The translations under genes were made by a program, and so were the position numbers. A stretch of 64,000 nucleotides of DNA from Vulcanimicrobiota bacterium (GTDB lineage: Bacteria > Vulcanimicrobiota > Vulcanimicrobiia > Vulcanimicrobiales > Vulcanimicrobiaceae), in assembly GCA_013036105.1 (NCBI GenBank), contig JAAXCX010000001.1:1-64000 (forward strand), read 5' to 3'. Positions 25,452 through 58,638 of this stretch are shown here, in pieces. How positions within the stretch are numbered: the first letter of the stretch is position 1; each line of letters starts with the position of its first letter. A model generated the notes under the pieces. It saw only the letters and a program-made list of their open reading frames with translations, had not been told where the DNA came from and ran no database searches.

Positions 25452-25515
25452 CGTCGAGCCGTTCGCCACCCCTCGATTGTATGGCCTCCAGCGACGGACG
25501 GGGAAGAGATACGCA

Positions 25516-35902: not shown

Positions 35903-36996
35903 GAATCGGGATCTTTAATTGGCGCGACGTTAGACATCCGAAAGCCGGCGGCGCCGAGCAGTACCTTCACCGTCAGGCAGTTCATTGGATCGCGTCGGGA
36001 CATTCGGTGAAGTGGTTCGCGTCGCGTTTTCGCGGAGCACCCCGGCGTGACACCGTTGAGGGAGTAGAGATCTACCGCGCGGGCGGAGAGTACGGGGTCT
36101 ACGCGGCCGCGCCGTTTGCCTACTTCAAACACATGCGCGATTGCGACGTCCTGATCGACTCGGAGAACGGCATTCCGTTCTTTACTCCGGTATTTTCGCG
36201 CCGTCCGAAGGTTCTGCTCATGTTCCACGTTCATCGTAACGTTTTGCTCCGCGAATTGCCGCCGCCGGTGAATTGGTTGACCTGGGCGCTGGAAGTCTGG
36301 CTGATGCCGATTGTCTATCGCCGCGTCCCGTTCGTGGCGATCTCGGAGAGCACGCGCGACGAGATTGTCAAATACCGGTACACGTCGCTGCCCGTGACCG
36401 TCGTTCACAGCGGTGTGGACCTCAGTATGCAGCCCGGCAAGAAGCTTGCCGAGCCGTCCATCGTGTACTTGGGACGCGTCGTTCGCTACAAACGCATTCG
36501 CGAACTGCTGAAGGTCTTCGCCGCCGTGCGACGCCGCGTGCCGGCGCGTCTGTACGTGGCGGGAACCGGTGCGGATGTGGAAGCGTGCGAAGCGCTTGCC
36601 GAAGACCTCGGCATCCGCAGTTCGGTGTTCTTTACCGGTTTTATCGGCGAGGACGAAAAGCGCGCGCTGCTTTCGGGCGCCTGGGTCTTCGCTCAGCCCT
36701 CGCAAATCGAAGGCTGGGGCATCAGCGTTATTGAGGCGGCTGCGTGCGGAACGCCGGCTGTTTCCATGCGCGTTCCCGGACTACAAGACGCGATCGTCGA
36801 CGGACAAACGGGCAAGCTGGTGCGGACCTGGGATGAATTCGGCGACGCACTGACATATATTCTGACCGATGAAGCCGCCCGCGCATATCTTTCCGAGCAC
36901 GCGTTAAGCCATTCGCAGTCGTTTTCATGGCAAAAAAGCGCGGACCAGCTCCTGACGAGACTGGAGCAGGTGCGGGCGGAAGATTCCGCCTCGTAG
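35899..36996 (+). CDS. GT4 family glycosyltransferase, possible CTG start
   Basis: 365 aa from CTG 35899. GT-B fold: RIGIFNWRDVRHPKAGGAEQ, FVAISESTRDEIVKY, VVHSGVDLSMQPG, IVYLGRVVRYKRIRELLKVF, the donor-site FAQPSQIEGWGISVIEAAAC and GTPAVSMRVPGLQDAI. The N-terminus typical for the family (LRIGIFNWRD) starts at a CTG that overlaps the previous stop as CTGA, the same geometry as the ATGA couplings elsewhere. TTG at 35845 is the nearest ordinary start and would add 18 residues. Confidence 0.9.
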   Translation: MRIGIFNWRDVRHPKAGGAEQYLHRQAVHWIASGHSVKWFASRFRGAPRRDTVEGVEIYRAGGEYGVYAAAPFAYFKHMRDCDVLIDSENGIPFFTPVFSRRPKVLLMFHVHRNVLLRELPPPVNWLTWALEVWLMPIVYRRVPFVAISESTRDEIVKYRYTSLPVTVVHSGVDLSMQPGKKLAEPSIVYLGRVVRYKRIRELLKVFAAVRRRVPARLYVAGTGADVEACEALAEDLGIRSSVFFTGFIGEDEKRALLSGAWVFAQPSQIEGWGISVIEAAACGTPAVSMRVPGLQDAIVDGQTGKLVRTWDEFGDALTYILTDEAARAYLSEHALSHSQSFSWQKSADQLLTRLEQVRAEDSAS

Positions 36997-39395
36997 ATTC
37001 ATGGACGAGCGCCGTCGCGCTCGCCGGAATGATCTTTCTGCTCAGCTGGCCGTTCCTCATTGCTCCGGGACAATTCCTATACGTCCGGTATTTTGACGCG
37101 GATACTCTTTTCGGGCCTTTCTGGAAACTACGCGACTTGGTGAACGTCTGGGATGCACAATCCCATCTGGGCTATGCGCACGCGCGTGACTTGTCGTATC
37201 TATCTATTCAAGAGATCGTCTCGGCGCTAATGTCGCCATTGGGATCTGATTTTCGAAATCGCAGCTCGCTTGTCTGCGTCGCCCTGTTTGTATTTCTTGC
37301 GTTTTGGTGCTATCTGCGCGTGCACTTCCACCGCGTACCGGGCACGATCGCCGCCGTAGCGGCATTCTTTTATGCGGCCAATCCGTTCGTGGTCGCCTTC
37401 ATCCACGACGGCTACTCGGGCTTGCTCGTGGATTACGCCTTGCTCCCGGTAGCGTTGCTGATCGTCGAGTGGGCGAGGCGCAGAGGACGCCCGCTGATCG
37501 TGTCGTTCATACCGCTGCTCTTTCTGCTGACCGGGATGTACAATCTCACCTCCGTTTTGGTAGCGCTGATCGGAACGGCGGTTTTGGAGTTTGAATATCT
37601 TTGGAACGCGTTGCGAACGTCACGAGTCGCGGCCTGGGCGACGGCGCTCGCATTCTCGCTCAACCTCTATTGGCTGCTGCCGTTGCTTTACGACTTGGCG
37701 ATTCATCCCAAGCAGCCGATCCTTGCAGAGTCGGCGGGCGACATATCGGTCCTCACATCGGCAGGCACGCTGACCAATGCTTTTTTGCTACGCAGCTATC
37801 CGGAGCTCTGGACGAAAGCCTACGGTACGCGTGAGTGCGTGGGCTGCGCGTTTTACGAGTCGCCCTGGTTCATGATGGCCATGTTTGCGATCGCCGTCTG
37901 CGCCATTGTGGGACTGCTCAGAGCGCGCCGGATCGGTTTGCTCGTGGCTCTGGCAGCCTCGATCCTGATTGCGACCGGGTATCACTATCAAAGCGAGATT
38001 TTAGGAATTCCGTATTTGATCCTGATGGGTCTGCCCACATTCGATGCCTTTCGCAGCAACGTAAAATTTTCGGCCCTTACTGCCGCGTTCTATAGTATCG
38101 GCTTGATGTATTTTTACGTCATGCTGCCGCGGTGGCGCGCGCGATTTGCGGTCGCGAGCGCGATAGCTGTTGTCCTCATCGCGCTGCCTTATGTCACCGG
38201 AAGACTCATCGAACGCAGCCCCGACAGCCCGCCGCGCTTCCCGAATTTTGTCGTGACGATTCCTGAGTATTATAGCGAGCTGCGCCAGCACGCGAACCTT
38301 CTCCCCGACGAACGTCCGACGTTGATGCTGCCCAACATGCCGCTCGCCGCCTACCGCTGGGGCGCATACGGCAACGATTTTCTGCCCGCTTTTCTTGGGA
38401 AGCCGACGCTGGCTGTGAGTTATTTGCCGCAACCGAGCTGGCAAATGGAACAGATTTTGCAGAAGCTGACCGCGCGGCGCGGCTCCCGCGAAGGGCGCCA
38501 GTCACTCCTGCGAGCGCTTGGGATTTCGCGCATACTCTATCGCGATGACGTCGGCCAGACTTATGCGCTTGCGCCGTCCGAATTTGGAAAGCCGCTAGCG
38601 ACGTTCGGCGCGATGCACGTGCTCGACAGCGCAGGCGCATTTCCACAATTTGCGGTCGCCCGAGAGATGGATCCCGTATCGGGTGTCACGGGAATCGCGA
38701 GTTACGCCGGATTCTGGAGTAGGCCGACTCGCGGATTCGACGGCGCGCGGGACGGCGCGGCGGTTTGCGCCGGCCGCGCGCAAATCGGATTGGACGTCGT
38801 TGAAATAGGGCGCAAGCATACACAAGTTTTAGCTATTCCCACGACGTGCAGCCACAAGCTCCACGTCGCATTGGTGTTGGACCGCGCTGGCGTGCGCGAT
38901 TTCGGGATCGCTGAGGACGGTCGCGTGCCGACGGTTTTGCGCGTGGCATCGGGACCGCGTGGAACCGCTCTGGCGACATTCGTGATGCCGGCAGGACGAC
39001 ACACATATATCATCAGTGGAAGGCGAAACGCGATCGTGACAGGGGTTGCGGGCGTAAAAATATCGCGCGCGCCCTATCGGATCATGCAAGCCGCTTGGTC
39101 GCGCGTCGGCCAAGTCGGCTACCGGTTTGAACCACTGCCCTTCTCACATTACTTGATCTTTAATCAGAATTTCGATCCGTCGTGGGCGGGGTACGTGCAA
39201 GCGGATGGGCGATGGCGCCCGCTTTCGAATTTCATGGCGGACGGTTATGCCAACGCGTGGGACGTGCCGGCGCAGACTCCGCTGGTCATCGTCAATACGC
39301 TGCAAATCACTGCGTGGATTGCTGCAGCGCTCACGCTTCTGCTGCTGGCGCTGTACCTGTACGTCTTGGCGCGCGGACTGCGCGGGGACGCGTGA
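36927..39395 (+). CDS. Large GT-C-like membrane protein (giant paralogue 1)
   Basis: 822 aa if started at ATG 36927, which overlaps the previous gene by 70 nt. An in-frame ACG at 37005 (9 nt after that gene's stop) or ATG at 37029 would start right at the first helix. About ten to eleven helices in residues 35-430 with a long first loop (FDADTLFGPFWKLRDLVNVW), then a periplasmic beta-rich part ending in FNQNFDPSWAGYV and MADGYANAWDVP and one last helix. The layout fits AftD/YfhO-type lipid-linked sugar transferases. Sits between two GT4 genes. Confidence 0.78.
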   Translation: MAKKRGPAPDETGAGAGGRFRLVDSWTSAVALAGMIFLLSWPFLIAPGQFLYVRYFDADTLFGPFWKLRDLVNVWDAQSHLGYAHARDLSYLSIQEIVSALMSPLGSDFRNRSSLVCVALFVFLAFWCYLRVHFHRVPGTIAAVAAFFYAANPFVVAFIHDGYSGLLVDYALLPVALLIVEWARRRGRPLIVSFIPLLFLLTGMYNLTSVLVALIGTAVLEFEYLWNALRTSRVAAWATALAFSLNLYWLLPLLYDLAIHPKQPILAESAGDISVLTSAGTLTNAFLLRSYPELWTKAYGTRECVGCAFYESPWFMMAMFAIAVCAIVGLLRARRIGLLVALAASILIATGYHYQSEILGIPYLILMGLPTFDAFRSNVKFSALTAAFYSIGLMYFYVMLPRWRARFAVASAIAVVLIALPYVTGRLIERSPDSPPRFPNFVVTIPEYYSELRQHANLLPDERPTLMLPNMPLAAYRWGAYGNDFLPAFLGKPTLAVSYLPQPSWQMEQILQKLTARRGSREGRQSLLRALGISRILYRDDVGQTYALAPSEFGKPLATFGAMHVLDSAGAFPQFAVAREMDPVSGVTGIASYAGFWSRPTRGFDGARDGAAVCAGRAQIGLDVVEIGRKHTQVLAIPTTCSHKLHVALVLDRAGVRDFGIAEDGRVPTVLRVASGPRGTALATFVMPAGRHTYIISGRRNAIVTGVAGVKISRAPYRIMQAAWSRVGQVGYRFEPLPFSHYLIFNQNFDPSWAGYVQADGRWRPLSNFMADGYANAWDVPAQTPLVIVNTLQITAWIAAALTLLLLALYLYVLARGLRGDA

Positions 39396-40492
39396 AGCGC
39401 CTGCTGGCCCCACTATGGTATCCGCCCGAACCGAGTTTCGCCGGCGGCTTTTACCGGGCGAAGCGCATTCTCGAATCGCTCCGGCAGTGGGAGCCTTACG
39501 TCATCGCGAGCGATACGTTTCCTATTTCCGGCGCGCACGTACGCCGCTATCCCACGGCACTGCTGCGTGCGAACTCGGCCCTGATATTTAAGGTAATGCG
39601 CGCCTTGAACTGGGGGTGGAGCGCGGCGGCGATCGTCTTCCTCGCGCTTCTGCGGCGCCGAAGGTACGATCTGGTCTATGCTGGTCCCAGCGAAATCCTT
39701 CCGATTTCGCTTTCCGCGCTGGTTATCGGTAAACTGCTTCGAATTCCGGTCGTGTTGTGTAACCAAAACGTTCGCGATACGGAGCTCTGGGCGCTCAATC
39801 GTGCCATTCACCAGGCGGCGGACGTCATCATTACCGTTTCGGAAGCGTTGCAAGGCGAACTTCGGCGCGAGGGTTTGCACGGACCGGTATTCGTCGGAAC
39901 AAACGGCGTTGACGATTTCAGCGTTCCGGGAAAGCCCCCGGTGTACGATGCGGTCTTTGTCGGCCGGCATACCGAAGGCAAGGGCATCTTCGATCTCTTC
40001 GCTATCTGGCGGATCGTCTGCGATACCAAACCCGGTGCGCGGCTCGCGTGCGCAGGATTCATTCCGCCGCACCTCGAGAATCGCATCCGCGGGACGTTGC
40101 GCGATCTGCGCCTAGAGGAACGGGTAGCGCTCCTGGGTCCCGTCGTCGAGGACGAGAAGTGGCGGCTTTACGCCGTGTCGCGAATCTGCGTCTTTCCTAG
40201 CCACGTCGAGGGTTGGGGCATCGTCCCGATTGAGGCCCACCTCGCCGGTCTTCCGGTGGTGGCCTATGCCCTCGGCGCGTACGCCGACACTATCGCCCAA
40301 AGTCCGGGCGCAACGCTCGTGCCCGTCGGTGACCTGGACGCGTTCGCGGAAGCGACAAGCGCGGCGCTAGATGCTACGCCCGATAGCGAAAAGCTGCATG
40401 CCTGGGCAAGATCCTTTACGTGGAGAGCCGCGGCAGACCGCGAAGAGCTGCTCCTGGATCGCGTTTTGCAACACGCGAGACAAAGATCATGA
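39392..40492 (+). CDS. GT4 family glycosyltransferase
   Basis: 366 aa, GTG overlapping the previous stop (GTGA). GT-B fold: N-terminal KRLLAPLWYPPEPSFAGGFY, middle VITVSEALQGELRREG and GTNGVDDF, then DAVFVGRHTEGKGIFDLFAI and the donor-site CVFPSHVEGWGIVPIEAHLA with GLPVVAYALGAY. A longer in-frame start at 39182 would run inside the giant gene and is rejected. Its own stop overlaps the methyltransferase start (ATGA). Confidence 0.92.
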   Translation: MKRLLAPLWYPPEPSFAGGFYRAKRILESLRQWEPYVIASDTFPISGAHVRRYPTALLRANSALIFKVMRALNWGWSAAAIVFLALLRRRRYDLVYAGPSEILPISLSALVIGKLLRIPVVLCNQNVRDTELWALNRAIHQAADVIITVSEALQGELRREGLHGPVFVGTNGVDDFSVPGKPPVYDAVFVGRHTEGKGIFDLFAIWRIVCDTKPGARLACAGFIPPHLENRIRGTLRDLRLEERVALLGPVVEDEKWRLYAVSRICVFPSHVEGWGIVPIEAHLAGLPVVAYALGAYADTIAQSPGATLVPVGDLDAFAEATSAALDATPDSEKLHAWARSFTWRAAADREELLLDRVLQHARQRS

Positions 40493-41109
40493 ACGAGAAT
40501 CCCGAGCACTACTACGAACACGGCGGAGCGAAGAGCGATTATGCCATCGCGACGATCCTACTGGGAATCGGGTCTAGCGGCTTAGGTCGCGTGCTGGACA
40601 TCGGTTGCGGAAATGGGAAGGTGCTCGAAGCTCTAGGTGCTCGTTCCGCGGATCTCACCGGCATCGACGCATCCGCGGGCGCAATAGACCTCGCGCGTCA
40701 GCGCGTGCCTCAAGCTAGTATCATGGTCGCTGACGTGGAAGGTATTCTTCCGTTTGGCGACGCCGCCTTCGATACAGTGCTCATGCTCGATGTCCTCGAA
40801 CATTTGCGCAGTCCGGCGAAAGCCCTAATAGAAGCTCGACGTGTGTTACGCGCCGGTGGCCGGCTCGCGGTCACCACTCCAAACGCAAACTCCCTAATGC
40901 GGTACGTTCGTGGAAGGAATTGGTTTGGCGTAGCTGACCCGGGGCACGTGTCGTTGTACACGAGCTTTACCCTGGACCATTTGCTAGAACGCGCCGGATT
41001 CAGAATTTCGATGCGGCGGATTGAGCCTTTTACGGGAATGCTTGCTGATCCGATCCTGCGTGTTCTCAGGGTTGGCGGAACACTTTTTGTCGTTGCAGTG
41101 AAAGCATAA
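40489..41109 (+). CDS. Class I SAM-dependent methyltransferase
   Basis: 206 aa, ATGA overlap with the GT4 gene. Motif I VLDIGCGNGKVLEALG, acidic residue of motif II LTGIDASAGAIDLA, motif III/post FDTVLMLDVLEHLRSPAKAL and RVLRAGGRLAVTTPNANSLM: a UbiE/Methyltransf_11-type fold. In this context it probably methylates a sugar of the glycan or a terminal residue. The last 44 bp overlap the convergent giant paralogue 2. Confidence 0.9.
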   Translation: MNENPEHYYEHGGAKSDYAIATILLGIGSSGLGRVLDIGCGNGKVLEALGARSADLTGIDASAGAIDLARQRVPQASIMVADVEGILPFGDAAFDTVLMLDVLEHLRSPAKALIEARRVLRAGGRLAVTTPNANSLMRYVRGRNWFGVADPGHVSLYTSFTLDHLLERAGFRISMRRIEPFTGMLADPILRVLRVGGTLFVVAVKA

Positions 41110-43351
41110 GGAGTTGAATCAGAGCGGCCATCAAGACGGCAAAAGAAATCGTGAGCGCTGCAAAGTACGCTCTGGCCGGCCCGAACATAAGGGTAGCCGA
41201 CCCTCGCACGCCGCGTGGAAAGACCCACGCGTTCGCGTAGCCGTCCGCACGGACGTGGATGGCGTCACAGGAAATGCACTCCCAACCCGGGTCGAAGCGC
41301 TCCCGCAGGACGAGAATCGCTCCCGGTGGTGCTTGAAGTGAAAGGTTTGATTGCCAACGTCTGTCTTGCACGACGACAAGGCTCCGATCCGCGCGCGACA
41401 ATGACCGGACAAACGCTATGCGTCTCCCTGTGATTGCTTCGGAGATGGCAATCGGCGCTGTTCCTCGAAACGTTGCAGTTCCGTTACAATCAAACACCGA
41501 GAAGTGTGCGTCGACGGCTTTGCTATAGATGCAGCCTACCGCACTCAATTTGCCGTCGGCGGATCCCGCGAGCACGCTGCTGTGTGATGGCAAGATCACC
41601 GTCGCTTGTGGCAAGGTCGTGAATATCCCCGAGGGGCGGTCATAGATCCACGCGGGCAGGTTGCTCCAAAGCGACGTCCGTGCCCAACTTTGTCTCGGAT
41701 TGACGGAGACGGATAGAGCGTTCAAATCGACCTGTGTGCCATCCATTCGCTCGACCGCGTCTAAGGAGGCGCCGGAAAGCCATGCAATCCGCTCCCCGCG
41801 TTCGGTTGATAGCTGCCAATACTTTTGCTCCGCCGCGGGGAGTTTCGGTAAGACCCTTTTCAACTGGGGCTCATAGGCAGAGCTCTGCTGCACGCCCGGG
41901 ACCGAGAGTGTGTAGCTGATGGCGAGCTGGCGCAGTAACGCGGCCGGAATCTTTCGGTTGGCGCTTTGCCTGCTGACAATTGACGCGATCGGAGTTTCCG
42001 ACAAGGTAGCAAGTGCGCTTGCGTGTTCGCCAATAGGTAACATGAATGGAGACAGCCCATTATGCGGCTCGCCGGCCAATGACTGTGGAAGCCCGCTCGG
42101 GACGGGTAAATAGCGCGTCAGTCCGGGCGCAGCTGCTATCTGGTCGATGCGCATTGCACCTTCGCGCGACAACGTATAAAAGGGCAAGTTCTTGGTTTCG
42201 TAAGCGGTGACGCTCAACGATGTCGCGATCAAAATTAGGCACACGGGCAGCGTGCTAAGTCGGAACTTAGCGCTGGTTGCAAGTGCCTGTATGGCGCATC
42301 CGATCAGCATCGCATAGCAAATCGCAACAACTGCTTCAAAAGCATAAAGTTCGCGGAAAGGTGCAAAAGCGATGGTGTGCTCCACAAAATAGCGGAGAAT
42401 AGGCGCAAGCGGTCCATAGAAACCAGCGACCATTAACATTGCAGGGATTCCTGCGAGGATCCAGGCGCGCTGAGCGCTGCGCACAATAGCGATTATCGCG
42501 CCTGCCAGGGACGCAATCGGAAAAACCCAAAGCGCATTTTGCAGCCAGCTGGGAAGTGCGCTATCGTACCCGCCGATGTAGCCAAGGAATCGCAGCGCCG
42601 CTGAAAACGGGGTGCTTTGCGATTCTTCCCAATGAACAAGTGGACGGTACACTGCAAGGTTTGCGCCGGAACCCGAATACGCGGCTAGCAGCCACTGCGG
42701 CATTGTGAAAATCAAGGCGACAGCCAGGGCCGGTAAGCCAGTTCGTAACAGCCACGTTGGGCCAAGGCGCAAGCCCAATAGAATGCCGAGTGCTGTTCCA
42801 AAAACAAGAAATTGTTGCTGAGCGCCGGCAAGGCCAAGTAAAGTTCCCAGCAACAGGGGCCGCGTACGGGTCTTGGGGTCAACGAGCCCCGCGAGGAAAC
42901 AGGGCAGCAGCGCATACGAAAACAAGAAATGCAAATGCCCCGCGTGCACCTTGTTTAGTATGACCGGGTTGCCTATATAGAACGCAATCAAACAGAGGGA
43001 TGAAGCGGGAACAAACTGAGAAGCGCGGGCTAGCCAAGCGATCCCGCAAACGGCGACCGCGAGCAATATCAGCAAATAGAACAACAAGGCCGGGTGCGGT
43101 CCCAGGGCTGCGCACAATGATCCTGAAATGGCATAAGGTAGCCAAGGTTCGGGGTAGCTTTGTGGGGCACCAAGTCCCGTTGAGTTCCACGGCTCGCTGC
43201 CTAGGTGCGCAAATGGTATGCATTGTGCCTGATGCAATGGCCACTGCCAGTCCTGTTCGAAGGCAGGCACTCCGGTGCTGTATGCCAACGGAGATAGAGC
43301 CAGCATAGCGAGAGCCATGGCGAGCAGCACGTGTGCAATTCTGAATCGCAT
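41066..43351 (-). CDS. Large GT-C-like membrane protein (giant paralogue 2)
   Basis: 761 aa from ATG 43351. About eleven helices in the first 430 residues with a catalytic-type first loop (FAHLGSEPWNSTGLGAPQSY), HAGHLHFLFSYALLPCFLAG, then a beta-rich periplasmic part closed by LRERFDPGWECISC and RADGYANAWVFPRG and a final helix. The C-terminal signature matches paralogues 1 and 4. On the opposite strand to its neighbours and divergent from paralogue 3, with a 150-nt gap. Likely an undecaprenyl-linked-sugar-dependent transferase or related envelope protein. Confidence 0.78.
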   Translation of the reverse strand: MRFRIAHVLLAMALAMLALSPLAYSTGVPAFEQDWQWPLHQAQCIPFAHLGSEPWNSTGLGAPQSYPEPWLPYAISGSLCAALGPHPALLFYLLILLAVAVCGIAWLARASQFVPASSLCLIAFYIGNPVILNKVHAGHLHFLFSYALLPCFLAGLVDPKTRTRPLLLGTLLGLAGAQQQFLVFGTALGILLGLRLGPTWLLRTGLPALAVALIFTMPQWLLAAYSGSGANLAVYRPLVHWEESQSTPFSAALRFLGYIGGYDSALPSWLQNALWVFPIASLAGAIIAIVRSAQRAWILAGIPAMLMVAGFYGPLAPILRYFVEHTIAFAPFRELYAFEAVVAICYAMLIGCAIQALATSAKFRLSTLPVCLILIATSLSVTAYETKNLPFYTLSREGAMRIDQIAAAPGLTRYLPVPSGLPQSLAGEPHNGLSPFMLPIGEHASALATLSETPIASIVSRQSANRKIPAALLRQLAISYTLSVPGVQQSSAYEPQLKRVLPKLPAAEQKYWQLSTERGERIAWLSGASLDAVERMDGTQVDLNALSVSVNPRQSWARTSLWSNLPAWIYDRPSGIFTTLPQATVILPSHSSVLAGSADGKLSAVGCIYSKAVDAHFSVFDCNGTATFRGTAPIAISEAITGRRIAFVRSLSRADRSLVVVQDRRWQSNLSLQAPPGAILVLRERFDPGWECISCDAIHVRADGYANAWVFPRGVRGSATLMFGPARAYFAALTISFAVLMAALIQLLMLSLQRQKVFRQP

Positions 43352-43501
43352 GAGAGGTCTAACTAAATCTGCCGGACTAGGTAGGAGAAACACGGGTTGT
43401 AAGTATTCGCGCCAGGGCACTCTTCGAGCCTTGCAACGTTTTCGCGAAATCGAGATGAAATTTATGAAAACGTACCACTTGAGTACTGCTGGCTAAACAT
43501 T

Positions 43502-46500
43502 GTGAACGTTCGCATCGTGATGGACAACTTAGGGACGCTCCTAAGGAAGCACTGGCCTATTCTACCCAGCATTCTGATCGCCATGTGGCTTTTTCGCGGC
43601 TGGTATGTAACCGCAGGTTATCTTACGTTCGGCGATTTCGGACCGGGCCGATGGCAGCTTGATCCCAGTGAATCCTTTCATATATGGGATTACGCCTGGC
43701 AGCTCGGGCGTGCAGATTCGACTTATTTTTGGCTTCGCTATTTTCACGCTTTGGCGGCGCACGCACATCTTGGCTATCCAATAACGGAGCGGGTACTCTT
43801 TTTTTATCTTACGCCACCGTTGTTGATTGTCGGCATGTACGTTCTGGCCCTGGAGCTGACGGGCAATCCCCTCGCGGCGGGTGTATCGGCTCTATGCTTG
43901 ATACTCGGCCCTGATTTTCTTGTGCGTGCAATAGGAGGGCACGAAGTAGCCCTAGGAGGCTTATCGGCTGCGCCGTGGTCGCTATACGGAGCGGTTCGAG
44001 CCATACGAACCGGCCGAGTAGGATGGTTCGCATTCACAGCGCTAACGTTTGTGTACGGTACCGTTTTCGATGTCCGCTGGACATTACCGACACTTATTGC
44101 GACCGGCCTGTTCAGCGCAGCTCTCGCGCTCGAGTCTCGTGCGAGATGGTTCCGCGCTGTTGCCTTGTGCCTTTTTGCGGTGACGGGCGTCGTGGTGCCG
44201 AATCTGCCTTGGATTTTGGCGCACCTCGCCGGCGGAAACAGCGTTCCCCTCCCGCCCGCGTCGCATTACGATACGATCTGGATCGGAAGGCTGAGTTTTG
44301 CAAATGCGTGGGATGCACTGGCGGGATGGAATCCTACGATTGCGAGCGATTTCTCCCAAGGTATCTTACGATTTGCTCATGCTCCTGTGTTTGGCCTGTT
44401 ATTTGCAGCTTTGGTCGCGTTATGCGCATTGAGGTTGCGCACGTGGATCGCCATGGCTGCACTCGTCGCTTATATCGTATTTGCTTTTCTGTTCAAGGGG
44501 TCAAACCCACCGCTCGGAAGCCTATACAGTTGGCTATTTGTTCATCTCCCTCTATTCAATCTGTATCGTGAGCCCGTAAAATTTGGTGGAACCGTTTCCC
44601 TTTGCGCGGCTGTTGTTCTCGCTTACGGAATCAGCAGTTTTAGGACGCCGTGGAAGAGCGCTGTCATGGCTGGTTTGTCAGCCGCTGCCGTCATCGGTTT
44701 GAGCTATTCCGTGCTTGCGGCGGGGCCGGGCGGTACACTTCAGTCTCGTTCCATGCCGGAGCGGTATCGCGTTGTCGATCGGTATTTCCGGCAAGACGAT
44801 CGATTTGGGCGAATATTATGGCTCCCAGATGTTTCCAGGTGGTTAGTAAGCTCGGCCCTGCATCCGTTTGTCGACGGAGTCGAGATCGGCTATGCGGATT
44901 TTGAACCGTTCTCAGCAGGCGATGTACTTGGCTACGTTCAATCGCCGCTTTTCCCATGGCTGCTTCGGGCTGGGGCCTTCCGATACGTCGCGGTTGATAC
45001 AGACACGCAAAACGATAGCACATTCCGATCTGCGTCATTTAGGCTTCCCGATATTTTGGCCGCACTTAAGGCCGTATCAGATCTTCAACCTGTGAAGCAT
45101 ATAGGCTCGGTTATTGTCTATCGTGTGACAGGGGAATCGCCGGCTGTGTGGAGCTCGCGGGTCGGGCTTAGGGCGTCCGGTCACCCGTCGGGACTCGCGG
45201 CGCCTGCCCTCTTAGGGTTGCTCCCGAAGGGTGTGCCTGTGGCGTTAAACCCGGGGAAGTCACCAATAGCGTTCGGTGGACAGGTTTCTCTAAATGGCGC
45301 CAGCGGTCGCGATTCTGCGTCGACGGCGGATGCGAGAGCCGTTGTCGCTGATTCGGTTGACGAGGGAACGCGAAAGGGCGTGCCGTGGGTTAGTCAGCTT
45401 GGCGTAGATCGCGGAAGCTGGACGACCCGAATATCCCTAGGCGTTTCCACTCTACCATTGGATCCCGTGGCCGCAATTGCTCGCCCCGCTCTGGCGGGAA
45501 CGATCGCCTCTTTCAGAGGGGCCTTTCTTGGGCCCGGCAGGCCCCCAGGCTTCATGACGAGACTGCCATTAATCGGCCGTGATGTGCGTGTTCCAGAAAT
45601 CCCGATCGTCCTAGGCCCGGCGATTCGGTTCAAGGGCGACGCATCAGGCCCGCCGGTAACGTTTGTTGCCCAATTTTTCGATTCCCGCACCCACCGAAGT
45701 TATTATACGGTGGGACCGACTTTCGAACATCTCCTTCCGGCGACAGCGTTGGACGTACGAACATCGCTGTTTGAAACGCTTGTTGAAAGCGAGCCGGCGC
45801 TCTTGCGCGCCGACCATTTTGATGATTTGCTGCTGCAGCGTATTGCTCTCATACAAGCAGGTGGAGCGCCGCGATCTTTGGGAATGCGAATCGACCTTGC
45901 GGGTTCGCGCGGAACGTTGGCCACGGATGCTACAGCGCTTGAACCATCCAACTATTCTTGCGCGAGATGTATTCGAAGCGCCGGTTCGCTGGAACTTATA
46001 TTTTCCGGTAGGGCGCGCAATCCCAAGTCGTGGAGTGGGCATGCAGCCGTGATATACCCGCGCGGTAACCCTCCGTTAACAGCATTCGTCACCAAAGACA
46101 GCCGGCTATTTCTTGAGGGTATCACTGTCCTGGGGACCGGGTTCAGGTATCGGAAATCAGCCATTGCGAACATCGAAGATGCACCGGATGTTGTCCCTAT
46201 TACTCTTCTCAGCAGGGTGCGGTTAACCCGTGGAGACCTTGTGCTGAGAGTTAGAGGTGCGCATCCAACGCTGCGTTTTAGACTGGTGTTATTTGTTCGC
46301 GACGGGCGAGCGGGAGAATTCGTGCAAGATGTACCCTGCTTACCGTTGTTGAGCGAATGCGCTGCAGAAGTGAGCCTCGACAAGGCACTCTTTGACGCAG
46401 GTAGCGGCTCGGTTCGAGGTATCGTATTGCTAGCTATCCGGCGAGACTACAAAAAACCGATCATCGACAGAATTACTTCTGTGGACAGCTACCTTGTGAA

Positions 46501-47026
46501 TGACGGGGCCGCACACCTATTGCCAAAAGCGTGGATGGAATCAAAAGGTGGTATCTCGACGATTATGACCGACCGCATAGTAACCTCTGGAGGAGAAACG
46601 ATTGTAACGAGCTTCGGCGCTCCTAGTGGAATTTTGGCCGTTGGTGTCGCCCATGGAGGCGCCCTTGCTGTGCGCTCGAAGGCCCAACCTCTCATTCCCG
46701 GGCGAGAAGAGCTCTCGTTCACAGATCGGTCTGGCAACCAATGGCTCGTGCTTGCCGAGCGCTACGATCCGCAGTGGCAGCTGCTGGATGCATATGGCCG
46801 AGGGATTGGGAGACATTTTGTTAGTTACGGTCTCTTTAATAGCTGGTATATTGCGGGTGGATTGTCCGGTACATACCGCTTGACTTACACTGGGGAGGCG
46901 GTCGCTAGGTTCGGCACGGTCCTTGCTCTGGCACTCTCCGCAACTCTATTGATCCTGAGTCTTTCATTGGCCAGGCGGCGCATTAGGATTCAGCCTAATG
47001 CGCCGCAAGGGCTCGCGAACGACTAG
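43502..47026 (+). CDS. Large GT-C-like membrane protein (giant paralogue 3)
   Basis: 1174 aa, GTG start. Around ten helices up to residue 400 (first loop FGDFGPGRWQLDPSESFHIW), then a very long periplasmic part of more than 650 residues, ending in VLAERYDPQWQLLDAYGRGI and YGLFNSWYIAG and a last helix (TVLALALSATLLILSLSLA). The closing motif diverges from the DGYANAW seen in the other three, but position and pattern are the same. Domain length is like the AftD arabinosyltransferases of actinobacteria. Codon use is less GC-biased than in the first 40 kb. Confidence 0.75.
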   Translation: MNVRIVMDNLGTLLRKHWPILPSILIAMWLFRGWYVTAGYLTFGDFGPGRWQLDPSESFHIWDYAWQLGRADSTYFWLRYFHALAAHAHLGYPITERVLFFYLTPPLLIVGMYVLALELTGNPLAAGVSALCLILGPDFLVRAIGGHEVALGGLSAAPWSLYGAVRAIRTGRVGWFAFTALTFVYGTVFDVRWTLPTLIATGLFSAALALESRARWFRAVALCLFAVTGVVVPNLPWILAHLAGGNSVPLPPASHYDTIWIGRLSFANAWDALAGWNPTIASDFSQGILRFAHAPVFGLLFAALVALCALRLRTWIAMAALVAYIVFAFLFKGSNPPLGSLYSWLFVHLPLFNLYREPVKFGGTVSLCAAVVLAYGISSFRTPWKSAVMAGLSAAAVIGLSYSVLAAGPGGTLQSRSMPERYRVVDRYFRQDDRFGRILWLPDVSRWLVSSALHPFVDGVEIGYADFEPFSAGDVLGYVQSPLFPWLLRAGAFRYVAVDTDTQNDSTFRSASFRLPDILAALKAVSDLQPVKHIGSVIVYRVTGESPAVWSSRVGLRASGHPSGLAAPALLGLLPKGVPVALNPGKSPIAFGGQVSLNGASGRDSASTADARAVVADSVDEGTRKGVPWVSQLGVDRGSWTTRISLGVSTLPLDPVAAIARPALAGTIASFRGAFLGPGRPPGFMTRLPLIGRDVRVPEIPIVLGPAIRFKGDASGPPVTFVAQFFDSRTHRSYYTVGPTFEHLLPATALDVRTSLFETLVESEPALLRADHFDDLLLQRIALIQAGGAPRSLGMRIDLAGSRGTLATDATALEPSNYSCARCIRSAGSLELIFSGRARNPKSWSGHAAVIYPRGNPPLTAFVTKDSRLFLEGITVLGTGFRYRKSAIANIEDAPDVVPITLLSRVRLTRGDLVLRVRGAHPTLRFRLVLFVRDGRAGEFVQDVPCLPLLSECAAEVSLDKALFDAGSGSVRGIVLLAIRRDYKKPIIDRITSVDSYLVNDGAAHLLPKAWMESKGGISTIMTDRIVTSGGETIVTSFGAPSGILAVGVAHGGALAVRSKAQPLIPGREELSFTDRSGNQWLVLAERYDPQWQLLDAYGRGIGRHFVSYGLFNSWYIAGGLSGTYRLTYTGEAVARFGTVLALALSATLLILSLSLARRRIRIQPNAPQGLAND

Positions 47027-47234
47027 AAGCTCCGAACCCCGATGGGGTAAAGGAAGGGTTATCGCGTTTCCCGGCAAACGCCACAGCTCGTTCCAAACCG
47101 TGACTTTGTATTGTTGAAGGTTTTTTTGCGAATTCAACTTGCCCGGCGGGCCTGTCTTTGTCGGCGAAAAAAATACCCTCTATTGTTTAGCCGTGCGGCA
47201 CGCTCAAGGGCGCGGAGGATTGGGGTAACAGTGT
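47027..47234. other. 208-nt intergenic region
   Basis: No ORF of note. A weak hairpin (CCCC-GAT-GGGG) lies just after the upstream gene, a TTGAA...TTCAA stem with a T-run follows around 47113-47140, and GGAGG occurs about 16 nt before the next ATG. None is strong enough to call a terminator or promoter. Confidence 0.4.
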
Positions 47235-48569
47235 ATGTCGCGGACTGACACCTGGATCGGACCGCCTCAACGGATATCCCGTGGAGTCGCCAATCTGGAG
47301 ACCGGGATTCTATCGCACGATATTCGCTTAACACGAACTCCCGTGGCCGTAGTTTCACCTTATGCGTTAAGTGCAGACGATGTCGGTGGGCCGCACGATT
47401 CAGCGCTAAATTGGTATACGCGTAAATTGACGCAGTCGCTTCATTTGCAAGGTTGCGAAGTCACTGTCATATCCTCTTCAGGGGATCAGTCTCAGCCGTG
47501 GACTGACGACGGGGTGCGAATTGTGCCGACATTCGTTCGCGGAAAGTTGAACGCGGCCGCAAAGATTTTTTTTGGTGCTTTTCGGTCGAGGGCAAGAGTC
47601 GTCCATTTTCAGCACGAGCTTTTTGCTTATGGCGGCATTTTTACGGCTTTTACAATACCGCTTTGCGTAGGCATGCTGCGCTTCGTCCGCCGTCGGATTG
47701 TAACTACCGTGCATGGCGTTATTCCGCTAGACAAAATTGACCGGGATTTTGTCCACTCCAACAGAGTCGGCGGCGGGGCTGCCCCGCCCGCTTTTGTCCG
47801 TTTTGTCTGGAAAGCTCTCGTTCGTATGGTCTGTGGTTTCAGCGATGTGGTACAAGTCCATGAAGAACAGCACCGCCTGAACCTCGTACGTCAGTACGGG
47901 GTGCGAACTCCAATTATCGTCATTCCGATCGGTATAGATGTCGAAAACTCATCCCCGGTGAAAGTCAATGCTCGAAGGGCGCTCGCACTCGGCAGTGACG
48001 ATGAAGTGCTTTTGTTTTTCGGGTATTTTGCCTCATACAAAGGGCTTGGGGAGCTAATCGCCGCTATGGCGCTGGCGTTCGATCGCCGTCCTAAACTTAA
48101 AATCATTTTGGCGGGCGACGTGTCATCTCGACTAAAAAAGCATAACGGCACGGATCAGATCTTGCGGAAGCACAACGTTGATTCGAATCGGGTGGTCAGG
48201 TTGGGCTTCGTACCGGAATCGATGGTCAGCACCGTGTTTTCCGCGGCGGACGTCCTGATTCTGCCGTACACAATGTCAATGTCATCGAGCGGCCCCATGT
48301 CGATTGGCCTAAGCTACAAGATTCCGATTTTGCTTTCATCGGCTTTTCATGACGCCTTGCCGAGCTTCCCCGGAATGTTCCGGCCGGTACCTCAGGAAAT
48401 AGCAAGTGCTGTCTGCAGATTTTTTGATGACAAATCGTTGCGTCAAGCCATCGAGCAGCGGTGCAATGTGCTACGAAACGAACGGGCTTGGCCTAATGTG
48501 GCGCACAGAGTACATGCTATGTACTCCTCGGTACTGCGCCCGAACTACCAAAAGGCACTGACGCAATAG
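47235..48569 (+). CDS. GT4 family glycosyltransferase
   Basis: 444 aa. GT-B fold with N-terminal VAVVSPYALSADDVGGPHDS and TRKLTQSLHLQGCEVTVISS, RIVTTVHGVIPLDKIDRD, VVQVHEEQHRLNLVRQYGV, IVIPIGIDVEN, then LLFFGYFASYKGLGELIAAM and the donor site VLILPYTMSMSSSGPMSIGL. The usual E-x7-E is altered to a Ser-rich stretch (SSSGPMSIGL), as in some GT4 subfamilies, so activity is likely but the donor is uncertain. The first 33 residues are extra to the family; a later start is possible. Confidence 0.87.
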   Translation: MSRTDTWIGPPQRISRGVANLETGILSHDIRLTRTPVAVVSPYALSADDVGGPHDSALNWYTRKLTQSLHLQGCEVTVISSSGDQSQPWTDDGVRIVPTFVRGKLNAAAKIFFGAFRSRARVVHFQHELFAYGGIFTAFTIPLCVGMLRFVRRRIVTTVHGVIPLDKIDRDFVHSNRVGGGAAPPAFVRFVWKALVRMVCGFSDVVQVHEEQHRLNLVRQYGVRTPIIVIPIGIDVENSSPVKVNARRALALGSDDEVLLFFGYFASYKGLGELIAAMALAFDRRPKLKIILAGDVSSRLKKHNGTDQILRKHNVDSNRVVRLGFVPESMVSTVFSAADVLILPYTMSMSSSGPMSIGLSYKIPILLSSAFHDALPSFPGMFRPVPQEIASAVCRFFDDKSLRQAIEQRCNVLRNERAWPNVAHRVHAMYSSVLRPNYQKALTQ

Positions 48570-48575
48570 GTCGGA

Positions 48576-48595
48576 TGCTGCCGCAACAGGCAGCA
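48576..48595 (+). other. Intergenic hairpin
   Basis: TGCTGCC, loop GCAACA, GGCAGCA: a perfect 7-bp stem 6 nt after the GT4 stop and 31 nt before the next gene. There is no T-run after it, so it is not a classical terminator; it may slow exonucleases or act as an attenuating structure. Confidence 0.45.
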
Positions 48596-48626
48596 CATTA
48601 AGTAAGGCCGAAAAACGCGACACCAG

Positions 48627-51600
48627 ATGTCCAAATTAAGAGTGCCGGACGTGCCGCGTATTGTCGTACTCTTGATTGGGCTGCTTTTGGCTGTGGACGC
48701 CACGCTGAACCTTTTCGATCTACTTTCCTTTGCCAACATCGCTCCAGGCTTGCGGTCTTACGGTTCCGGCAGCTTGCAGCTATTGTTTAGTTCGACGCAG
48801 AACTATGGTCAGCCGGCGAACCTTTTGGAAATTGCATTTGAAGCGATAATCATCGTTGAAAGCTTAGCGGCACTCTTGTTTTTCCGGAACAAGGTGCGAG
48901 CAGCATTTGCGATTTCCGTAACCCTCGTCGGGATATGCGTCGTGGTGGAGCACGTACTTCATGCGGCCCAGCTCGAAGTTGGTCATATCGCCGTTTTGGT
49001 ACTTCTTTTGCTAGCCTATTCTTTTAGGGAACGCGAGGTCAGTCATGGAGTCTCGACTGGAGATACTCTTCAGTCGGCCGGTAGGCTCTTCGAGCCGAAG
49101 TCAAGGTTGCGCAGCTTCAGCAAAATAATTCTAAGTTACACTGCGCGTTTGCCCCAAGATCGTCGTGTTGGTCTATGTTTCTGCGTTATAATCGCGATCG
49201 CGTTCGGCGCACTGTTATTTGGCCAAGGGTTCTATGCTTTCGGAGATACCGATTTCCCGATACGCCTTTGGCCGCTCAGCACGTTTCTGCCGTTCGATTC
49301 CCGGTCCCAGCTTGGTTACGATAATGTCTACATAGGATTGCCGCGCATATTCATGATGCTCTTTGAGAACCTCTTATGGGCTATCTTCCACAACACGGCA
49401 GCGGTCTCGTTTATGTTTTATTCGGTTCTGGCCTTTATGGGAATGTGGGGCGTTTACAGCCTATTAAAGCGCGGATCAGTTCCCCCATTTGTGGCGGCCA
49501 TAGCGGGCGTTCTATATGTACTAAATCCATGGATGGCTGCGCGTATCAGCCAAACGAACGTGGTCATTGTGTATATGGCGGTTCCGATTTTCTACACTTT
49601 CGTCATGGATCTCTTAGCGCAGCCAAGGATCGAGCGATCTGCCCGAGTTGGACTCTTTGCTCCGATTCTTTTGTGCGCAATTAATATGACCTATATCGCG
49701 TTCGTCGGCACCGTGGTCCTTATAGTCGTGTATCAGATCGTGAATAACTACAATTTTGCACGACGGGTACTTGGGCTTGGTACGGCCTTTGCGTTTGGTT
49801 GCGGGATCAGCGCATTTTTCGTTTTGCCAGCCCTAGCGGAGGCATTGCAAGGCACGACGGGGGCTCTCGAGCACGTGGCTCGCTATTATTCGTTTGCGAG
49901 TTATCGCTCCTTCGCCTCGACTGCCGACTTCTACCATTTCATCAGGTACGAGGGTTTTCTATATGCGCCATGGCGAGCATGGCCGGATATTTGGCAGCTC
50001 GATTTGACGCTTCTTCCGATCGTCGTTTTCACTGTCGCAGGCTTTGGGGTCATTAACCTGCGTGCTTTGAATTCACGAGCTCGCGTACTTTTGTTATCCG
50101 GCCTAATGTTTGTCGCTATTTCCCTGTTCTTTACCCAGGGAACGTTGACCGCACCTCGGCTAGTGGAAGCGGTTTGGCGAGCTGTGCCGGGTCTTCGCGA
50201 ACTCGTCGATGCCGACTACTGGGGAATGTTATATTCTGCCGGAGCCGTTATGTTACTCGCTAGTTTTCCTGCGATAACGCGTTGGAGACGAGAAGCGCCG
50301 TGGTTACTTCTTGCTGGTGTACTATTCGGAAGTGCCCCATTCGTGCCGGGGTTGGGATTATTTGCGAAAGCGAACCCGCCGCGAATCTATCACGAACTGC
50401 CTGTGACAGGCGATGGCGAGCGCACTTTGTGGGAGCCGCAAACCTGGGCCAATCATTATACTTGGTCGCCCTACATGCTCGCTGGATGGCCAACCGTGGC
50501 TGTCGCCGGAGATTCATACGGCCCGTACGCGGCTGAAATCGCATCCCGCGATAGCTCGGATTTCAGTGCTTATGTGCACGATCAGCTCTCGGCGGCCGAA
50601 ACGCGCGGACTGGACTCCTTTCTCGACATGGCGCGGACTCGATACGTTTTGCTGACCGAGGACAAGGTCAGCGATCCGACCTACGCGCCTTACCCTGAAA
50701 GTGAGAGGGCTGCGCTTAACCGCTCGCTCGACCAACTATTGGACGCCGGAAGCTTTACGACCGTTAGAGGTTTGCGAGTTTTTGAGCCTCCCGACGATGT
50801 AGCAGCGAAGCTGTTGCCGCAAAGTCGGTGGTACCTAAAGTACGTACCGGCCAGTCGCGATGATTTTGCGGGGGACTTCCGCGGCCGCCTCGGGCTGACG
50901 CCATTGTCCTCGCTGCGCCGCAACCGAGCTTGGCCTGCCGACACGATATCGATGTTACCTATTTCAATTACCGAGTTGCCCGTAGCGGGATCCCAATGGC
51001 GCACGGGCCTCTGCGAGCCCCACTCCGACGCAAGGATCGATGGTTCTTTGGATATCCGCGGAAAAGCCGTGATTGGCACGGTCGGCCATCATTTGCGCTG
51101 CGCCAGCCTTTCGATCGTGCTGCCAGCTGGCGTGAATGCTCTTGAGATACCCACGCGAACTATGGATGCGGTTCCAAGCGGTACCCTTGTCACAAAAGAG
51201 CAAGGCAGGCAGCTAATCCTGTCTTCTGATGGTTCGTTGCGTCTAACCGTGCGCGCAGTGCGTCCCCAACTAGCGACTTTATTTGTTTATGTCGCGCCCG
51301 GTAGGCGGGGTCAGGTAGCGTATGGTCCTGTGCGAGATACACTCTGGCCGAGCGGTCGCTTCGAAATTCTGGGTTTAGATTTTTTTCCGAAGGATATTCG
51401 GGCAGCATTTGCTCGCGCGGAACGCGAGGCGCGGCATGTGCGTATTCTTCGGGCGGTGCATAGCCTTTCGGACGCCGTCTTCGTTGCCCACTCCGCAGTC
51501 GCAACGCATTCCTCGCTTGACCGTATCCCTGTCGTCGCGCGGTACGGACTGAGCGATGCTATTCTCGCGGAGCCGGTACGCTTGCGTACCGTCCCTCGCA

Positions 51601-52541
51601 TCGAAGCCTTGGGAGCTGGGGATTCACTCCTGTCGGTCCCGGATTCTGCAAATCTGACTATCCAATACATTCCCATGGGCGTCGCCCCGGTGAACGCGAC
51701 AGCCGTGATCGACGGGAAAGCGATTCCCGCCACCTCGTTACTAACGAAGCGAAATGTTAGTGCACGCCGGATTGAATTGCTCCCTTTGAGTCACGAAACT
51801 GTGCCGTTCAACTCGCGCGCCTGGATCGTCGGCGTCTGTGATGGAACGAAGTCTGGCACGGGCTCGCTCTCATTCTCAGGCGGATTTGCCCTAGGACGCG
51901 CCGGGACTCGAACTTGGTGCATGAGCCGGACCGAGGAATGGGCAGTGGGCGTTCATTCCGTCAGCGTCGGCGTTAAGGCCATCGGGCTGACACCTCGTGG
52001 GCTTATCCAGATCAATGGTGACCAGCTACCGCTGGATTGGAACGCCTCCGGGACGATGACATCGAAGGTAGTGTTAGGGCGTCGCTCAACTGTTCAGATT
52101 TTCTTATACGTGGATACCGGTCCACGAACCAATGAAATTCGGTTCACGTCCTTTGAAGATTCCACTTGGCCTTCCGGCAATGTTCTTGTAGGCACAGCAT
52201 CCCACACCCCGCCGGCACCCTCCGCTCGTCTTCTCAATCTCCAAAGACGTCCTCTCTCCTACAGCGCGACGCTAGAGGGCTGCGATAGTGGATGCATTGT
52301 TGTTGCGGCATGGTCGTTTTCGCCAATTTGGAAGGCAAACGTTGGGGGAGAAGACTTGACCCATGTGCATGCCAACGGTTATGCCAATGCTTGGGTGGTC
52401 CCGCCGCAGCGCGGGCCTTCAACGATCAAGGTCTATTACGCAGTTGGAATCGTTTACTACGTCGGACTCGTTCTCTCGACGCTATCCATGGTGTTCCTGG
52501 CGCTCCTTGCCTTGAGGTCTAAGCACCGCGCAGAGCTTTAG
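48627..52541 (+). CDS. Large GT-C-like membrane protein (giant paralogue 4)
   Basis: 1304 aa, the largest gene of the region. Four helices at the N-terminus (residues 10-140) look like an extra module; the main membrane part follows (YAFGDTDFPIRLWPLSTFLP as first loop, VLYVLNPWMAARISQTNVVI). The region from about 600 to 1260 is periplasmic and beta-rich and seems to contain two similar halves (each with a MSRTEEWAVGVHS- or LCEPHSDARIDGS-like block followed by VFLYVAPG/IFLYVDTG). It ends in AAWSFSPIWKANV, HANGYANAWVVP and a final helix. AftD/YfhO-type layout. Last 60 bp overlap the convergent GT2 gene. Confidence 0.76.
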   Translation: MSKLRVPDVPRIVVLLIGLLLAVDATLNLFDLLSFANIAPGLRSYGSGSLQLLFSSTQNYGQPANLLEIAFEAIIIVESLAALLFFRNKVRAAFAISVTLVGICVVVEHVLHAAQLEVGHIAVLVLLLLAYSFREREVSHGVSTGDTLQSAGRLFEPKSRLRSFSKIILSYTARLPQDRRVGLCFCVIIAIAFGALLFGQGFYAFGDTDFPIRLWPLSTFLPFDSRSQLGYDNVYIGLPRIFMMLFENLLWAIFHNTAAVSFMFYSVLAFMGMWGVYSLLKRGSVPPFVAAIAGVLYVLNPWMAARISQTNVVIVYMAVPIFYTFVMDLLAQPRIERSARVGLFAPILLCAINMTYIAFVGTVVLIVVYQIVNNYNFARRVLGLGTAFAFGCGISAFFVLPALAEALQGTTGALEHVARYYSFASYRSFASTADFYHFIRYEGFLYAPWRAWPDIWQLDLTLLPIVVFTVAGFGVINLRALNSRARVLLLSGLMFVAISLFFTQGTLTAPRLVEAVWRAVPGLRELVDADYWGMLYSAGAVMLLASFPAITRWRREAPWLLLAGVLFGSAPFVPGLGLFAKANPPRIYHELPVTGDGERTLWEPQTWANHYTWSPYMLAGWPTVAVAGDSYGPYAAEIASRDSSDFSAYVHDQLSAAETRGLDSFLDMARTRYVLLTEDKVSDPTYAPYPESERAALNRSLDQLLDAGSFTTVRGLRVFEPPDDVAAKLLPQSRWYLKYVPASRDDFAGDFRGRLGLTPLSSLRRNRAWPADTISMLPISITELPVAGSQWRTGLCEPHSDARIDGSLDIRGKAVIGTVGHHLRCASLSIVLPAGVNALEIPTRTMDAVPSGTLVTKEQGRQLILSSDGSLRLTVRAVRPQLATLFVYVAPGRRGQVAYGPVRDTLWPSGRFEILGLDFFPKDIRAAFARAEREARHVRILRAVHSLSDAVFVAHSAVATHSSLDRIPVVARYGLSDAILAEPVRLRTVPRIEALGAGDSLLSVPDSANLTIQYIPMGVAPVNATAVIDGKAIPATSLLTKRNVSARRIELLPLSHETVPFNSRAWIVGVCDGTKSGTGSLSFSGGFALGRAGTRTWCMSRTEEWAVGVHSVSVGVKAIGLTPRGLIQINGDQLPLDWNASGTMTSKVVLGRRSTVQIFLYVDTGPRTNEIRFTSFEDSTWPSGNVLVGTASHTPPAPSARLLNLQRRPLSYSATLEGCDSGCIVVAAWSFSPIWKANVGGEDLTHVHANGYANAWVVPPQRGPSTIKVYYAVGIVYYVGLVLSTLSMVFLALLALRSKHRAEL

Positions 52542-58196: not shown

Positions 58197-58638
58197 GTTT
58201 GATGGACCAGTCGTAGGGGATGGTCGTATCGAATGGATCGCGGCGCACGATTTCGTCAGTCCGGTGAGGGACTGTTGCGCAGTTTGCGACCAGCGACACG
58301 CCTGGAACAATACTTTTGAAGCCATTCCAAATATTCGGCGGTATTGTCACAAGTGCATAATTTCTGTCACCAAGAAAAAATTCGTTCACCTCTCCACGTG
58401 TTTCCGAATTTGGCCGATCGTCGTAGAGCACGAGCTTTATCATGCCGCTGGGAACAGCATAGTTGAGAGTCATCTCCTTATGAAGGTGCCATGCCTTGAT
58501 AGCATTCGGATAAATGAGACTGAAGTAGATTTCGCCGAAGTGCTCAAAATGAGGGTCGCTCGCTTTTAACATATGCATGACGGCGCCGCGTTCGTCCGCG
58601 ATTACGTTCAGGGGTCGCAACTGGACGCCCTGGATCAT
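58189..58638 (-). CDS. dTDP/CDP-sugar epimerase, RmlC/AscE-like cupin
   Basis: 149 aa, ATG 58638 overlapping the rfbG stop (ATGA). Cupin-type RmlC family: IQGVQLRPLNVIADERGAVM, FSLIYPNAIKAWHLHKEMTL, MIKLVLYDDRPNS, ALVTIPPNIWNGFKSI. It is shorter than RmlC (~180 aa). Between rfbG and rfbH the most likely role is 5- or 3,5-epimerisation of the CDP-keto-sugar, as AscE does in CDP-ascarylose synthesis. The longer start at 58668 is less likely because it lacks the overlap geometry. Confidence 0.85.
   Translation of the reverse strand: MIQGVQLRPLNVIADERGAVMHMLKASDPHFEHFGEIYFSLIYPNAIKAWHLHKEMTLNYAVPSGMIKLVLYDDRPNSETRGEVNEFFLGDRNYALVTIPPNIWNGFKSIVPGVSLVANCATVPHRTDEIVRRDPFDTTIPYDWSIKHG

Follow-up and report, generated by a model that had tools for sequence, protein, structure and literature searches.

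Four divergent AftD-superfamily glycosyltransferases in an O-antigen-like locus of a Vulcanimicrobiota genome

Introduction

The known role of AftD is in making actinobacterial arabinan. Like the Emb and Gtr enzymes, it takes sugars from lipid monophosphates at the external surface of the inner membrane, as described in the accessible parts of PMC11127046 and PMC8035078. According to the portion of PMC12041299 available to us, every GT-CA enzyme carries an essential Asp on the tip of its first juxtamembrane helix; AftD is also described there with bound acyl carrier protein. Among the papers listed in our literature searches, none dealt with GT-C genes of the kind described here in the phylum Vulcanimicrobiota. 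We report four such genes, found together in one polysaccharide locus, and compare them with these systems.

Results

Gene content and architecture

The window, meaning the whole stretch of 64,000 nucleotides that was analysed, lies on a contig of 324,889 bases in a genome of 2.34 Mb that is 95% complete. Table 1 lists its relevant features, together with two genes just past its end. The open reading frames for four large multi-helix proteins, P0001 to P0004, are present at 36927-52541, as the first-pass annotation had stated; the length of 761 residues that it gave for P0002 is the one obtained from the ATG start. All four follow one plan by hydropathy, in which a helix-rich N-terminal half leads into a long soluble stretch and a single last helix. 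The C-terminal last helix is seen in 4/4 proteins by rough hydropathy, and the same method counts 9, 11, 8 and 14 helices for P0001 to P0004, so that the earlier figure of 10-15 holds approximately only. The long beta-rich part once ascribed to all four is visible in the low-confidence models of two of them, P0002 and P0003. The strong divergence reported outside the C-terminus is borne out, since no pair of the four gives a full-length BLAST match. Compared with its relatives in an alignment, P0004 has an N-terminal extension of about 180 residues and a longer periplasmic part. Residues 1-180 of P0004 (window 48627-49166) hold about four helices and are missing from its four relatives.

Table 1. 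Features of the locus. Positions are those of the window, except where the contig is named.
Feature	Position	Strand	Remarks
O-antigen ligase/polymerase family (Wzy_C)	21898..23178	-	PF04932 9e-16
GT2, ArnC/GtrB type, with C-terminal helices, polyprenyl-phosphate-sugar-synthase-like	24492..25868	-	PF00535; best NCBIfam models PgfS and ArnC, both sub-cut-off
Initiating phosphoglycosyltransferase (Bac_transf)	30974..31666	+	PF02397 4e-61
MurJ-family flippase	31737..33281	+	PF03023 3e-81
Wzx-like flippase (Polysacc_synt)	33274..34635	+	PF01943 7.7e-13
GT2, N-terminal part polyprenyl-phosphate-sugar-synthase-like	34649..35902	+	PDB ArnC E 4.5e-10; DTQCGAK motif
GT4 glycosyltransferase	35845..36996	+	PF00534 6e-34
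GT-C 1 (P0001)	36927..39395	+	822 aa; predicted AftD-superfamily GT-C; PF11847 49.7 bits; loop-1 D57/D59
Closing motif of GT-C 1, FDPSW...DGYANAW	39171..39260	+	aa 749-778
GT4 glycosyltransferase	39182..40492	+	PF13692 4.5e-21, residues 257-396
GT-C 2 (P0002)	41066..43420	-	784 aa from GTG, 761 aa from internal ATG
Closing motif of GT-C 2, FDPGW...DGYANAW	41225..41296	-	aa 709-732
GT-C 3 (P0003)	43502..47026	+	1174 aa; hhalign 99.8% to AftD-containing cluster; D45 6/6
Closing motif of GT-C 3, altered, YDPQW...YGLFNSW	46763..46846	+	aa 1088-1115
GT4 glycosyltransferase, between GT-C 3 and GT-C 4	47235..48569	+	PF13439 2.5e-12
GT-C 4 (P0004)	48627..52541	+	1304 aa; D207 and D232 5/5
Closing motif of GT-C 4, FSPIW...NGYANAW	52317..52394	+	aa 1231-1256
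GT2, DPM/ArnC/GtrB-like	52482..53207	-	PDB 9hwj ArnC 1.3e-9, 5mlz DPM synthase 5.2e-9, 5eke 2.5e-7
RfbH, RfbC-like cupin, RfbG-like, RfbF	56874..60379	-	NF011936 and TIGR02623 above cut-off; TIGR02622 below; cupin PF00908
GtrA-family gene, past window	contig 66624-67058 (L109:2624-3058)		GtrA at contig 66672-67016; about 14 kb beyond last GT-C
DTQCGFK-type GT2, past window	contig 67055-67849 (L109:3055-3849)		directly after GtrA, ends overlapping

A shared C-terminal signature

Motif and profile searches find the closing motif in 4/4 proteins, altered in the third as had been claimed. A relaxed form of the motif gives four matches in the six frames of the window, against a mean of 0.0 in 100 triplet-shuffled windows. 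In the whole genome, the HMM search with the C-terminal profile A1 returns exactly these four proteins and no other at E<=10, and a combined profile (A3) likewise finds no additional family member in this genome. A leave-out profile, built from five relatives outside the window after exclusion of the window rows and of a P0001 relative with 60% identity, matches all four proteins (E 5.5e-22, 2.7e-14, 5e-14 and 7.6e-7) and 0/67 other control ORFs, so the shared C-terminal end is real. This control set is clean for the C-terminal profile only: six of its large ORFs match the P0002-subfamily profile and probably belong to the family as well, while lacking a C-terminus that scores. A 1197-residue ORF of the window (14462-18055, reverse strand) is among the control ORFs. 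A chance occurrence of the motif is ruled out by the shuffled windows and by the leave-out profile with its controls.

The profile A1, built from ten C-termini, matches the mycobacterial AftD chains 6w98 and 6wbx of the PDB near their C-terminus at E 1.2e-5, the next match being an immunoglobulin at 0.14. The P0002-subfamily profile, A2, matches the same place in AftD at 5.3e-8. The motif thus characterises the AftD superfamily and is not peculiar to this locus; in sequence it belongs to the final periplasmic domain of AftD from mycobacteria (PDB 6w98), and is not new. Two actinobacterial relatives, L050 and L055, also carry it; with PF11847 matches at 4e-66 and 8e-93 and F5/8-type modules, they are recognisably plain AftD proteins.

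Membership of the AftD superfamily

P0001 passes the gathering cut-off of the AftD model PF11847 (49.7 bits vs 26). P0002, P0003 and P0004 have no PF11847 match at E<=1 and no Pfam family above cut-off, and Pfam recognises no CBM_AftD or F5/8-type module in any of the four. At E<=0.01, PF11847 matches 7/41 members of different subfamilies (41 of 43 intended rows; the two longest, L107 and the separately scanned L055, were left out) and 1/11 members of the P0002 subfamily (E 0.003). Profile-profile comparison by hhalign joins the four subfamilies pairwise at 93.3-99.4%, and joins them to a cluster with two actinobacterial AftD proteins at 96.3-99.8%, values that were obtained without a helical decoy and may be generous. 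Against the PDB, the combined profile matches AftD at 4.8e-57 over positions 61-1017 of 1034, a figure that is generous because the profile contains an AftD row; an oligosaccharyltransferase (OST) chain follows at 0.002, and GPCRs near 3. The P0003-subfamily (A7) and P0004-subfamily (A8) profiles by themselves match no PDB chain, and phmmer of P0001 and P0004 gives no match to PDB sequences. A mobile tail attached to unrelated proteins is ruled out for P0001 to P0003 by N-terminal HMMER and profile hits. The P0002-subfamily HMM reaches just the C-terminus of the P0004 cluster, and the N-terminal link of P0004 comes from profile-profile comparison alone.

The first-pass description of the proteins as AftD-like GT-C enzymes is supported by Pfam for P0001, by profile-profile comparison, by the PDB profile hits, and by superposition of the P0002 model. 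We assign all four to the GT-C enzymes of the AftD superfamily, as members of a divergent but recognisable kind.

Structure models

In the structure prediction and comparison with AftD that the first-pass annotation had called for, residues 8-419 of a low-confidence P0002 model (mean pLDDT 46.8, alignment of 8 rows) superpose on AftD with Z 19.3 and rmsd 3.9 over 343 residues. The first 45 structural matches of this model are all GT-C or GPI-transamidase-subunit chains, with Z down to 8.2, after which the value falls to 3.5. STT3 chains reach Z 18.4, a tie with AftD under the rule of the tool. Foldseek returns no E below 0.001 for the model, with AftD best at 0.011. The model thus predicts a GT-C helical core (GT-CA fold) in P0002. 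For P0003, whose model is poor (mean pLDDT 37.0), the best matches are again GT-C chains, STT3 at Z 10.6 and AftD at 9.3, with rmsd mostly >10.

Residues 415-545 of P0003 (window ~44744-45136) resemble the C-terminal globular domain of the archaeal OST AglB (3vu0), with Z 7.7 over 113 residues. Outside the helices, this is where the model is most confident, and AftD aligns across the same part; perhaps this is a domain common to STT3 and the AftD superfamily.

Conserved acidic residues of the first loop

An acidic residue, whose lack the first-pass annotation had named as grounds for refutation, is present in loop 1 of all four proteins; judged by sequence, every subfamily keeps it without exception (38/38 rows for P0002, 6/6 for P0003, 5/5 for P0004, 2/2 for P0001). 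In the P0002 subfamily the acidic positions kept in 38/38 rows are D57, in loop 1, and E357, which may be D or E, with no others. In the first loop of the other three subfamilies, D45 of P0003 is kept in 6/6 rows, D207 and D232 of P0004 in 5/5, and D57 and D59 of P0001 in 2/2, the last being weak because its rows are close relatives. In forced global profile alignments of very low score, from which rows with <=50 letters in the region had been dropped, D57 of P0002, D45 of P0003 and D207 of P0004 fall in register, and the loop-1 Asp of P0001 does not align with the other three. The relatives of P0002 are diverse enough to leave a small near-invariant set, such as D57, W58, W78, G84, R356, W713 and W732, that can guide mutagenesis and the definition of a glycosyltransferase family.

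Distribution and origin

At E<=0.001, 80/149 genomes of the phylum match the C-terminal profile, with 1-7 copies each. Selecting ORFs of >=700 aa with >=5 predicted helices and a C-terminal E<=1e-4 reduced 101 ORFs to 89, to which 2 were restored by hand; two rows of the resulting 91 are one protein in two records. These 91 members fall into 18 clusters, and the P0002 subfamily, which is phylum-wide, is the largest. In a tree of the 91, the four proteins are placed separately, each next to proteins of other genomes, and the starred branches force four changes; this is a quick tree with long branches, whose deep joins are unsure. Local tandem expansion is ruled out in that the four do not group on this tree. 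The earlier idea of an expanded family therefore holds for the phylum and fails for the locus. By their placements, each of the four belongs to a different phylum-wide subfamily, and the locus appears to hold a varying hand of old paralogues.

G002 is the genome of a close relative in the same genus. Its proteins are 72%, 61% and 34% identical to P0001, P0002 and P0003; P0004 has no relative in G002, and its best relative elsewhere is 25% identical. The same stretch of G002 contains two other family members, of 841 and 1082 aa. A P0001 relative (L047) occurs in the Candidatus Eremiobacterota bin JAAXCW010000005.1. Outside the phylum, a scan that catches close pattern matches only detected the C-terminal signature in Actinomycetota, Blackburnbacteria, Microgenomates and Omnitrophota.

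Locus surroundings

The region has several GT4 and GT2 genes, a methyltransferase and sugar-nucleotide genes. RfbF and RfbH score above their NCBIfam cut-offs, suggesting a pathway to a CDP-3,6-dideoxyhexose. The listed GT4 ORF at 39182..40492 overlaps GT-C 1, so its true start probably lies further in. Across 42000-62000, the second half of the cluster, G+C drops from ~0.60 to 0.51-0.58, as in laterally exchanged O-antigen segments.

GT2 genes resembling polyprenyl-phosphate-sugar synthases (ArnC, DPM synthase, GtrB) number three in the window and one just past it. A profile of these four GT2s has six matches genome-wide at E<=1e-10, of which four are the same genes and score best by construction; the fifth reads like another DPM-type enzyme, judged from its residues. 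The GtrA gene and the overlapping GT2 beyond the window are likely a flippase/synthase pair for a lipid-phosphate sugar. A GtrB-like GT2, GtrA and GT-C genes all lie inside ~43 kb and do not form one operon. No polyprenyl-phosphate-type GT2 in the window both adjoins a GT-C gene and is co-directional with it.

Genomic stretches around 53 relatives, hand-chosen from the stronger C-terminal-profile matches rather than from all 80 genomes, were surveyed without a random-region comparison: 33/53 have such a GT2 and 20/53 lack it, 21/53 have a phosphoglycosyltransferase, and 21/53 a MurJ-like gene. A single-sequence search found a GtrA-like gene in none of the 53. Seven loci of one genus (L072, L076, L080, L081, L082, L084 and L085) show the fixed order phosphoglycosyltransferase, MurJ, DPM-like GT2 and a GT-C of ~1350 aa, and in 6/7 another GT-C of ~750-1000 aa comes next. 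These seven are the best place for testing the pairing of GT2 with GT-C.

Discussion

The family relation, the conserved loop-1 Asp and the content of the locus are the basis on which a function can be proposed. Given their kinship with AftD and the company they keep, the four proteins most likely use lipid-monophosphate sugars on an O-antigen-like chain. We consider it probable that they are GT-CA enzymes of the AftD superfamily that move polyprenyl-phosphate sugars onto an O-antigen-like glycan in the periplasm, with the loop-1 Asp catalytic and the beta domain binding the acceptor. The GT2 synthases of the locus would synthesise the sugar donors in the cytoplasm, and GtrA or one of the MATE-like flippases would flip them across the membrane. 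At the periplasmic face of the inner membrane, each GT-C would then take a sugar from its polyprenyl-phosphate carrier; we infer that each may be served by a GT2 of its own. The acceptor may be the growing or the finished O-antigen-like glycan, so that the enzymes would build or decorate it. Within each enzyme, the active site would contain the loop-1 Asp, and the acceptor would be held by the beta domain at the C-terminus. Speaking against this reading are the three proteins with no Pfam family above cut-off, the lack of PDB matches for the P0003 and P0004 subfamily profiles by themselves, the poor models, and the GT2 genes, none of which in the window both adjoins a GT-C and runs in its direction, and which are missing from 20/53 of the stretches around relatives. 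The earlier suggestion of one transferase per linkage is compatible with four GT-C genes and four polyprenyl-phosphate-type GT2 genes in the region, and compatible is all that can be said of it. A broader proposal, which we hold to be doubtful, is that the surface glycan of this phylum is assembled or serotype-diversified largely in the periplasm, each locus drawing a different selection from a large set of ancient AftD-like GT-C subfamilies, with one linkage and its own polyprenyl-phosphate sugar for each enzyme. If true, this would parallel the periplasmic assembly of arabinan in mycobacteria, though with a mixture of hexoses and dideoxyhexoses.

Three other readings share part of this evidence. 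The proteins might be oligosaccharyltransferase- or polymerase-like, moving lipid-diphosphate-linked oligosaccharides in the fashion of STT3/PglB. STT3 stands close behind AftD for the P0002 model (the tie of Z 18.4 and 19.3), leads for the poor P0003 model (Z 10.6), and is accompanied there by the AglB-like domain at residues 416-543 (Z 7.7). Against this, the combined profile, which includes an AftD row, prefers AftD at 5e-57 to an OST chain at 0.002, and a common fold says nothing on the donor either way; we regard this reading as unlikely. Enzymes of the YfhO type, adding GlcNAc or a similar sugar to an envelope polymer, would follow the same three-component logic of GT2, GtrA and GT-C, as set out in the accessible part of PMC8035078. 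PF09586, however, matches none of the four window proteins (0/4, E<=1) and none of the 41 or 11 scanned members (0/41 and 0/11, E<=0.01), which makes a YfhO-type enzyme quite improbable and leaves the YfhO half of the first-pass label unsupported.

True arabinofuranosyltransferases, that is, AftD orthologues making arabinan from decaprenyl-phospho-arabinose, would account for the P0001 score above the PF11847 cut-off and for the C-terminal domain that the four have in common with AftD. No CBM_AftD or F5/8 domain occurs in any of the four, however, and PF04030 (DprE1 type) has 0 matches in the genome at E<=0.01, where a C. glutamicum control was positive. With a genome completeness of 95%, the missing DprE1 is no proof; the donor is nonetheless probably not an arabinose lipid, and arabinose transfer by these proteins is very unlikely. 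The arabinosyltransferase name of the Pfam model should therefore not be transferred to these genes. We return to AftD-superfamily enzymes acting on an O-antigen-like glycan as the preferred reading.

The closest known relative is AftD itself (PF11847, PDB 6w98/6wbx). Like the four, it has an N-terminal GT-C domain with a loop-1 Asp and, at the C-terminus, a beta domain marked by a P.W...G(W/Y)xx(G/A)W motif, after which comes a helix. Unlike AftD, the four have no recognisable F5/8-type or CBM_AftD modules, two are much shorter, three of the four fall below Pfam detection, and the setting is an O-antigen-like locus in a genome with no DprE1-type gene found. The GtrA/GtrB/Gtr systems of O-antigen modification resemble this locus in combining a lipid-phosphate sugar synthase, a flippase and a GT-C in a polysaccharide setting. 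The pentofuranose system of GT136 has the same trio of components, and GT136 likewise has a C-terminal beta domain, as far as the available part of PMC11127046 describes it. Both differ from the present case, in which a single locus holds four GT-C genes of four subfamilies, the last GT-C is separated by ~14 kb from GtrA and one GT2, and pairing is putative. YfhO (PF09586) is likewise large and of GT-C type, and its C-terminal part, located outside the cytoplasm, is thought to bind the acceptor, according to the same portion of PMC8035078; it differs in that no scanned member matches its model. The explanation at the level of the family is known and the setting is new; this is not a new kind of system. 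Here the AftD superfamily is a common, fast-diverging component of polysaccharide loci in another phylum, and the presence of four divergent members, three of which Pfam does not see, in a single O-antigen-like locus is relevant to the classification of glycosyltransferases.
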